Origin: Phosphitispora fastidiosa | Lineage (GTDB): Bacteria > Bacillota > Thermincolia > Thermincolales > UBA2595 | Assembly: GCF_019008365.1 (NCBI RefSeq) | Contig: NZ_JAHHUL010000001.1 | Span: 1 to 64,000 of the forward strand | Length of the DNA stretch: 64,000 nucleotides | Direction: 5' to 3' | In this document: positions 31,086 through 34,349 of the stretch, piece by piece | How the letters are laid out: the number at the start of each line of letters is the position of its first letter | Numbering within the stretch: position 1 is the stretch's first letter | Translations under genes and position numbers: made by a program | Notes under the pieces: generated by a model | The model's database searches: none | Told to the model about the DNA's origin: nothing | Seen by the model: the letters and a program-made list of their open reading frames with translations, nothing else

Positions 31086-33086
31086 ATGCAACCCATTTTA
31101 AACGCTTGGTCTCTGGCTGAAGCAGGAGGCAAAGAAGCTGAAATCGTTTATAAGGCGGCCGGCCTGATTGCAGCAGATATGCTGCTGCATCAACAGGTTT
31201 ATGAAAATCCGGGGGAATATGGAAACTGGTCTATTACACAGGTTGTCACGAGAAATGCGGGATTAATCAGCTGCTTTTCTTCTTTTTTTGCAGATGTTTC
31301 TGAGATTGCAGCAGATTACCAGAAAACGGCGGCTCTGATAAAGGATTATATGTGTTCCGTGTCAACCGGTGAGATCCTGCATGTCCCCGGTCAGGTGTTT
31401 GAAGCATCGATGGGTCTAAGGGACAGCAATAAGAACAGTACGGTGAGAAAAAACACCGGTTCATATTATACACCCCCGGATATCGTGAAATTCATGGTTT
31501 CCCGCTCTGCTGCCGAAATAATCAGGGTATCGAAAAACAAAGGTATCCCCAAGGGATTCAAGGCAATTGACCCTGCCTGTGGCGGGGCGTCATTTCTCAT
31601 TGAGCTGTTTGAGAGCCTGACAGGATATGGTTATTCTCCGGCACAAGCCCTGGAAGCTGTTTACGGCACAGACCTTAATCCTGATGCTGTAGAATTGGCT
31701 GTTTTTCTGCTGACAGTTTTATGTCTGTCAAAGTTATCAGAACATAACTGCGAAGAACTTTCATCTATATTAAAAGCCAAAAAAATCATTGAAAAAAATG
31801 TCATAGCTGCCAATACCATTACAGCCGACCGGCGGGTCCTTTATCCTTGGTTGTTTGATACCGGTATATCTGCTGACCTGAGGGGATTTAATCTTGTTAT
31901 CGGCAATCCTCCTTATGTATCCAATAAGTTGATATCAGCCGCGGAAAAGAAACAATACCGTGAGAAGTACCGGTCGGCCAGAGGGCAGTATGACCTCAGT
32001 GTGCTTTTTCTCGAAGAGGGCTTGGAATTATTGGGTCCGGAAGGTTTGCTTTGCTATATAACCTCTAATAAGTTTTTGGCAGCAGAATATGGTCTGAATT
32101 TGCGCCAATTACTGCTGGAGAATTACCATGTGACTGAGATTATTGATGTTTCCACACTAAAGGACTTCCATGGTACTGCAGCCTATCCGGTTATTATTAC
32201 AGTCGCCAATTCGCGGAAGACTCCGGCAGCAGAGAGATTGATAAATCTCATAAATATATCCTGCTGGGAAAATGCGCACAACTGCAAACCTGTCGTCGTC
32301 AAACAGGATTTTTTCCAACAGCGTGAGGAGTACCTGCTGACAACAGAGCTTACTGAAGATACCTTACCGCTGATAAATAAGCTGGACTCTGTCAAAGGAC
32401 GCATTTCCCGCAGCCAAATAGCATGTGGTCTTGCTGTCGCGGGTTTTGGAAAATGGGTTACCGAAGAGCTGCCTGGAGGAACTGAGGAAAACCCGCATGA
32501 GCATTTCCTGTCATTTATCCAGGCAGGTGATATTACACCCTACCAAGTAAAACCAGGGGCCTGGATAGATGGCAGTAAGATAAAGTATGGCAAAATGGGA
32601 AAAATAAAAATGCCTAAACTGGTCATTCCGGGTATTGCCCGCAGACTTTCTGCTGCGGTAGATTATTCGGGAAGTCTGCTGGGAAGAGTATATTATATTA
32701 CTAACGAAGATTTATTCCTTAATTTAAGATACCTGGCTGTTCTCTTTAACTCATTCCTGCTCAATTTCTATTACCGGATTGTATACTGGCCTATCCATTT
32801 GGCAGATGGGTATCTCCGTTTTAACAGCGGTTACCTTGCGGGAATCCCTGTACAGGGTATTACCGGTATCCAGGCAGATTTGCTGAAGGAAATTATTCTG
32901 ACCGGGGCAGCCCTGGAAACCGCTGTTCCGGGTACTCGCGAATGGGAAGACCTGCAAAACCGGGCCGAGGCGCAGGTATTTGGGTTGTATGGGTTTAACG
33001 CTGCTGAGGCAAAAACTGTTATGAACTTTTTACAGACTCCGGCTGCGAAAATCGAGAAAATAATCGGCTTGATGGAAGGGGATTGA
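31086..33086 (+). CDS. Orphan Eco57I-type N6-adenine DNA methyltransferase
   Basis: 666 residues. The order is a helical N-terminal domain, TGSYYTPPDIVKFMV at about residue 125, the AdoMet site DPACGGASFLIELFE at about residue 163, and the catalytic NPPY at about residue 277 (VIGNPPYVSNKLI), then a C-terminal target recognition domain (FIQAGDITPYQVKPGAW...GKIKMPKLVIPGIARRLSAA...YFNSFLLNF-type). No PD-(D/E)XK nuclease motif is visible and no restriction gene is nearby, so it is probably a solitary methyltransferase. It sits in an operon between ftsW/rodA and NUDIX, an odd place for defence. Similar orphan methylases (CamA of C. difficile) affect sporulation. Confidence 0.85.
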   Translation: MQPILNAWSLAEAGGKEAEIVYKAAGLIAADMLLHQQVYENPGEYGNWSITQVVTRNAGLISCFSSFFADVSEIAADYQKTAALIKDYMCSVSTGEILHVPGQVFEASMGLRDSNKNSTVRKNTGSYYTPPDIVKFMVSRSAAEIIRVSKNKGIPKGFKAIDPACGGASFLIELFESLTGYGYSPAQALEAVYGTDLNPDAVELAVFLLTVLCLSKLSEHNCEELSSILKAKKIIEKNVIAANTITADRRVLYPWLFDTGISADLRGFNLVIGNPPYVSNKLISAAEKKQYREKYRSARGQYDLSVLFLEEGLELLGPEGLLCYITSNKFLAAEYGLNLRQLLLENYHVTEIIDVSTLKDFHGTAAYPVIITVANSRKTPAAERLINLINISCWENAHNCKPVVVKQDFFQQREEYLLTTELTEDTLPLINKLDSVKGRISRSQIACGLAVAGFGKWVTEELPGGTEENPHEHFLSFIQAGDITPYQVKPGAWIDGSKIKYGKMGKIKMPKLVIPGIARRLSAAVDYSGSLLGRVYYITNEDLFLNLRYLAVLFNSFLLNFYYRIVYWPIHLADGYLRFNSGYLAGIPVQGITGIQADLLKEIILTGAALETAVPGTREWEDLQNRAEAQVFGLYGFNAAEAKTVMNFLQTPAAKIEKIIGLMEGD

Positions 33087-33863: not shown

Positions 33864-34067
33864 TTAGGTGACCGGTGATTTTTCTAATTGTTTCAGATCT
33901 TTTAAAAGAGCTTCCCCATCAATACCATGAACGCGGGCAGCCTGCCCAACGCTTTCGTAAGCTACGCCGCCTCAGCCAAGGCATTTAAGACCGTATTTGG
34001 CAAAAACCTTCACCGATTCCGGGTAATTGCGGATAACCTCAAGGATAATTGTGTTTTCTGCTATCAA
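33864..34067 (-). CDS. DUF1858 redox-disulfide protein with in-frame TGA, candidate selenoprotein
   Basis: A 67-residue frame from a TTG at 34067 (GGAGG at 34081-34077, 9 nt before) to a TAA at 33866-33864. It reads TIILEVIRNYPESVKVFAKY, GLKCLG, TGA, GGVAYESVGQAARVHGIDGE, ALLKDLKQLEK. This is the DUF1858 (hybrid-cluster-protein-associated redox disulfide) fold throughout. The TGA (33974-33972) is exactly at the second Cys of the family CXXC motif, giving C-L-G-U. Frame, start and stop are otherwise intact, and a SECIS-like hairpin follows the TGA. Reading as selenocysteine is likely; a nonsense-mutated pseudogene is the alternative. Confidence 0.6.
33930..33953 (-). promoter_or_regulatory. 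SECIS-like hairpin after the in-frame TGA
   Basis: On the coding strand, bases 19-42 after the TGA fold into a stem: A-U, G.U, C-G, G-C, a bulged U, U.G, three G-C pairs, C-G and a possible A-U. The loop carries GG(C) about 30 nt from the TGA. A bulged U below a short upper stem and a GG in the apical loop are the known features of the E. coli fdhF SECIS (AGGUCU loop; here AGGCU). Judged by eye only. Confidence 0.5.
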
Positions 34068-34115
34068 ATTAAACAGCCTCCATTCCGGAAAATATTTTCA
34101 CTCTGTATTATTTTT

Positions 34116-34141
34116 ACCAGGAGGAGTAAATTCCTCCTGGT
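34116..34141 (-). terminator. Hairpin downstream of the SASP gene
   Basis: ACCAGGAGGA-GTAAAT-TCCTCCTGGT, 10-bp perfect stem, between the SASP stop and the DUF1858 start. No T-tract, so strength is uncertain. Confidence 0.6.
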
Positions 34142-34160
34142 GGTGTAAAATATTTATTTT

Positions 34161-34349
34161 TTATTTGTTCAGGAGTGTACCATCTGCCATCGCTTGTTCA
34201 GCTCTTGCAATAGCCAGGCGGACCAGATTACCACAGTTTCTCGAGGATACGTCACCCCAACCGTCCTTCTGAACGGTTTCGAGAACACCGAGTTCCTTTG
34301 CCAGTTCATATTTCAGGGCATCGGACATGATTCCATGCCTTCCTGACAT
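34161..34349 (-). CDS. Alpha/beta-type small acid-soluble spore protein
   Basis: 62 residues with the two SASP signature blocks: YELAKELGVLE (before the germination-protease site region) and GDVSSRNCGNLVRLAIARAE. SASPs coat spore DNA and protect it from UV and heat; they are broken down at germination. The ATG follows AAAGGAGG. A forespore promoter (sigma-F/G) would be expected upstream, where a tandem repeat lies. Confidence 0.93.
   Translation of the reverse strand: MSGRHGIMSDALKYELAKELGVLETVQKDGWGDVSSRNCGNLVRLAIARAEQAMADGTLLNK

Follow-up and report, generated by a model that had tools for sequence, protein, structure and literature searches.

Selenocysteine (Sec)-containing members of the DUF1858 family have been listed as predictions. 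The entry "DUF1858 domain-containing protein, pfam08984, CxxU, WP_012065717.1" stands in the lists of prokaryotic selenoproteins of two reviews (PMC9312934, 2022; PMC13188914, 2026), which credit earlier surveys, the former those of 2008 and 2016. Neither of these surveys uses the term DUF1858 in its main text, and the original evidence may lie in their supplements. The first-pass annotation, which knew of no well-established selenoprotein in this family, was therefore mistaken at the level of prediction, and the gene described here adds a member to a selenoprotein family that is already catalogued. A literature search brought up no experiment that proves Sec in the DUF1858 family, and no paper joining sspF, the neighboring gene discussed below, with selenocysteine. 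As far as its description goes, WP_012065717.1 has the same Pfam family and the same Sec position in the motif as our gene, whereas a Thermincola-type clade with the GGVAYES..GQAA sequence and a linkage to sspF go unmentioned for it in the passages of PMC9312934 and PMC13188914 that list it.

Three further systems are close. The hybrid cluster protein-associated redox disulfide domain (TIGR03980) is the Cys form; it shares the CxxC position and is matched over its full length, but in the present protein Sec replaces its second Cys, and no hybrid cluster protein gene is found among the annotated adjacent genes. The DUF1858 proteins of known structure (2K53 and 2K5E) are Cys proteins with the same fold, and ScdA and YtfE are Cys proteins that carry a di-iron domain, which is lacking here. 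For the decoding signal, the nearest described system is the fdhF-type bacterial SECIS, with which the present locus shares a hairpin located in the coding region after the UGA and a GG that opens the apical loop.

The window (the whole 64,000-nucleotide stretch of Phosphitispora fastidiosa DNA that was analysed) contains a minus-strand DUF1858/TIGR03980 gene at 33864..34067, which consists of 67 codons plus TAA and starts with TTG. Its translation reads LIAENTIILEVIRNYPESVKVFAKYGLKCLG, an in-frame TGA, GGVAYESVGQAARVHGIDGEALLKDLKQLEKSPVT and the terminal stop. The TGA (33972..33974, minus strand) is codon 32 and coincides with the second Cys in the CxxC motif of the family (C-L-G-U), where it is predicted to encode Sec. 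A ribosome-binding site region of the GGAGG type precedes the TTG start at approximately 34075..34082 (minus strand), as similar sites do in most homologues. The intact frame with its single TGA, its start and stop, and the placement of the TGA on the second Cys thus agree with what had been described from the letters. When the TGA is taken as Sec, the PF08984 DUF1858 profile matches the frame at 61.5 bits (E=8e-17; gathering score, 32.2) and TIGR03980 does so at 69.7 bits (E=1.6e-19; curated cut-off, 44.95 bits), and both matches span nearly the whole frame. An AlphaFold model of the protein is a confident helical domain (pLDDT 88.7), whose best structural matches are the DUF1858 NMR structures 2K5E (TM 0.85) and 2K53 (TM 0.79); the N-terminal domain of YtfE (5fnn) matches more weakly. 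Sequence searching concurs with this fold, yielding 2K53, 2K5E, and ScdA.

TGA occupies the same codon in 22 distinct C-x-x-U loci with identities as low as 39%, and apart from it their frames are intact. Six public loci from Thermincola and related Firmicutes metagenome-assembled genomes (MAGs), which are 71-97% identical, have TGA at this position and no other internal stop; likewise, the DUF1858 matches of the same subfamily (from the window's own family and order) and the matches in further families of the phylum contain one TGA and no second stop. In every listed CxxU relative, TGA is the sole stop inside the match. Homologues with TGA aligned to Cys, proposed as a check by the first-pass annotation, are therefore available, and the decay by further stops that it had named as a counter-indication is not seen in them. 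In loci pooled from the family and order (ten loci), pN/pS upstream of the TGA is 0.24, and downstream of it, with the hairpin codons set aside, it is also 0.24, indicating that the downstream half is a protein under the same selection. As a side observation, one DUF1858 gene (L118 3001-3183, in G371) carries its TGA in place of the first Cys (UxxC) and lacks a hairpin of the conserved type; this is either another Sec position or an assembly error.

These data bear directly on the view that the TGA is a true terminator, leaving a functional 31-residue N-terminal peptide or permitting reinitiation downstream. Other frames of the window do end at TGA, but here the downstream half is as well conserved as protein and aligns with the C-terminal half of DUF1858, and no start codon is conserved in the alignment shortly past the TGA; we regard termination as very improbable.

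The region after the TGA contains a hairpin of the bacterial SECIS type (33934..33948, minus strand), with a 6-bp stem and a 3-nt loop GGC that begins 29 nt after the TGA. Its core, conserved across relatives, is GGGCA-GGC-TGCCC, which lies at 33935-33947 and is extended by one outer pair; in other families the stem is GAGCA-GGG-TGCTC, with the outermost pair also changed. In the bacterial SECIS model, as outlined in PMC13188914, the spacing is 16-37 nt and G occupies the first loop positions; the U-forms, with GGC, GGG or GGT loops, 6 bp and 29-nt spacing, fit it. Across 20 aligned sequences (L042 and one sequence that does not differ from the window's within the aligned part being omitted), all 120 of 120 stem cells are paired (100%) and 14 cells carry compensatory changes on both sides. 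When the partner column is slid by 1-3 positions, pairing falls to 17-43%; the shuffle control ignores relatedness. The six stem pairs are formed in 95-100% of the 22 U loci versus 22-63% of the 46 Cys loci; the single U exception to the conserved pairs, L042, has its own shifted stem.

Codon usage is constrained at the same place. Synonymous divergence is 0.31 in the hairpin codons and 0.73 in the remaining downstream codons. With relatedness ignored, the Glu codon is GAG in 11/11 U-forms versus 14/28 Cys forms, the Gln codon CAG in 21/21 versus 18/29, the Gly codon GGT in 12/12 versus 11/30, and the codon following the Ala of the stem starts with C in 21/22 versus 7/46.

Folding energy was considered as proof of the SECIS and rejected, because neither the minimum free energy (MFE) of a single sequence nor the energy set against synonymous shuffles discriminates, whereas comparison among relatives does. 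The plain MFE of 63 nt of the window sequence alone is unremarkable (z = 0.10), and single-sequence energies do not stand out from those of synonymous shuffles. The best constrained hairpins pass an MFE threshold of <= -7.5 kcal/mol, but in the window sequence the conserved hairpin is not the one of lowest energy, and shuffling of synonymous codons often gives comparable values. Thus, of the folding check that had been suggested, the single-sequence part was uninformative and the comparative part revealed the hairpin. The element first described, 19-42 nt after the TGA with a GG loop and a bulged U as in fdhF, is upheld as to the hairpin and the GG loop; it differs in part from that description, and the bulged U finds no independent support, since the T that is present in all U-forms occupies the middle position of a codon for Val, Ile or Leu and is explained by coding. 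We take the sequence of the hairpin itself to be unlike that of the fdhF SECIS.

The machinery for Sec insertion is encoded in the same genome (4.09 Mb in 239 contigs). The search yielded a tRNA-Sec with anticodon tca (UCA; 75.5 bits), SelB (365 bits), SelA (642 bits), and two SelD matches that each contain one TGA (L028 on contig C26 and L029 on C20 of G000). The TGA of L028 sits in the motif KAGUAAKIG, presumably the usual Sec position of SelD. All of selA, selB, selC, and selD are therefore present, and the absence of a sel gene set, which would have told against the first-pass reading, does not apply. SelA is found in 257/398 genomes of the phylum and in 19/20 genomes with a CxxU gene; the one CxxU genome with no selA match (G008) is a MAG that is 75% complete.

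UGA readthrough is known in bacteria, and UGA might accordingly be read here as Trp or Cys by a near-cognate or suppressor tRNA. TGA terminates other long frames in the window, however, and genome-wide reassignment is thus unsupported; moreover, homologues have Cys at the position, and the covarying hairpin together with the sel genes fits Sec, so that we give this reading hardly any weight. Least probable of all is a nonsense mutation, that is, a pseudogene or a sequencing error in a Cys-encoding gene: TGC or TGT becomes TGA in a single step and many of the loci are from metagenome assemblies, but the idea is refuted by the same TGA in 22 loci of several families, with other stops absent and purifying selection equal after it. 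The gene is therefore very probably a functional selenoprotein gene, on comparative sequence evidence, that yields a 67-residue single-domain DUF1858 protein in which Sec stands where CxxC has its second Cys.

Although resolution is poor in a tree of 67 short sequences, 21 U rows fall into a single group, which also takes in two Cys paralogues of G152; this is consistent with one main origin of Sec. L042 of G001 is placed among the Cys forms, and a separate gain of Sec besides the main origin has perhaps occurred. A second CxxU DUF1858 gene with a separate placement, L126 3001-3180 of G001, has a different shifted hairpin (GCCGC-AGGT-GCGGC), which, with its placement, suggests an independent gain. 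In G152, a Sec form of DUF1858 occurs alongside two Cys paralogues of the same clade (L119, L130, L131); in the Cys copies within the U clade, a Lys follows the stem and so breaks the closing pairs of the SECIS, which fits a Sec-to-Cys change in this genome. The SECIS thus constrains the protein sequence as well and is disrupted in the Cys paralogues, and this seems to be new.

Directly upstream on the same strand is a gene for an alpha/beta small acid-soluble spore protein (SASP) at 34161..34349 (minus strand), assigned by PF00269 (E=1e-6); the adjacency is conserved. We call it SspF-like, a name that we assume from the B. subtilis protein. Such a gene lies 61-200 bp upstream of the CxxU gene, on the same strand, in 14/20 CxxU genomes, which span five families (f1, f2, f36, f61, f134; adjacency at loci L012-L017 and L114-L129 besides the window). 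Among the others, the SspF-like gene of G361 adjoins the CxxU gene but is inverted, both genes of G119 are at contig ends so that adjacency cannot be judged, the two genes are apart in G046, G087 and G122, and G032 has no SspF match. None of the 46 Cys-form DUF1858 loci has a SASP gene within 1 kb, one having it at about 1.2-1.4 kb. As most SspF-bearing genomes hold a single copy, chance adjacency is very unlikely, and the recurrence of the linkage is in part due to vertical inheritance. The location of sspF directly upstream of the CxxU form seems not to have been described before.

Genes farther out vary among families. An Eco57I-like DNA methylase/restriction gene is located downstream (31086-33086), and relatives within the family and order have a related gene in the corresponding position. 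An inverted repeat, CCAGGAGG...CCTCCTGG, without a T run, lies between sspF and the DUF1858 gene at 34116-34142, and the corresponding gap of relatives contains similar hairpins. A sigma-A promoter scan of the gap in the window gave no promoter-like site; TATAAT-like boxes are seen in the gap of several relatives. The linked SspF has a conserved Cys; a tie between this residue and the selenoprotein was considered and rejected, because the Cys is equally present in SspF proteins without the neighbor.

Insertion of Sec by SelB at the hairpin is strongly supported by the comparative data. SelB carrying Sec-tRNA(UCA) would bind the hairpin within the coding region and decode the UGA, after which the Cys-Sec pair would form a selenenylsulfide, and the protein may act as a small thiol/selenol redox relay or reductant, like the putative redox disulfide of the family. 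Of the Sec-based DUF1858 disulfide that was originally envisaged, Sec at the second Cys is strongly supported on sequence grounds, and the redox role and a partner are inferred from the CxxC/CxxU motif. The linkage to sspF suggests a possible role tied to sporulation or the spore core. A more specific idea, which we put forward as speculative and on balance unlikely, is that the Sec form is kept beside, and possibly expressed with, SspF, and provides redox protection or reactivation based on selenium while anaerobes form spores or grow out from them.

What was a one-line catalogue prediction is thereby a family that has good support and whose SECIS is defined. In this family, an RNA element dictates protein sequence, as the residue after the Ala of the stem is held to C-initial Arg, Gln, or Leu codons, and G152 offers Cys and Sec paralogues in one genome for direct comparison. 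Genes of this kind would be shortened or missed by gene callers for which TGA always means stop. The sspF neighbor offers a hint of the biological context of a small redox domain that has had no assigned function.
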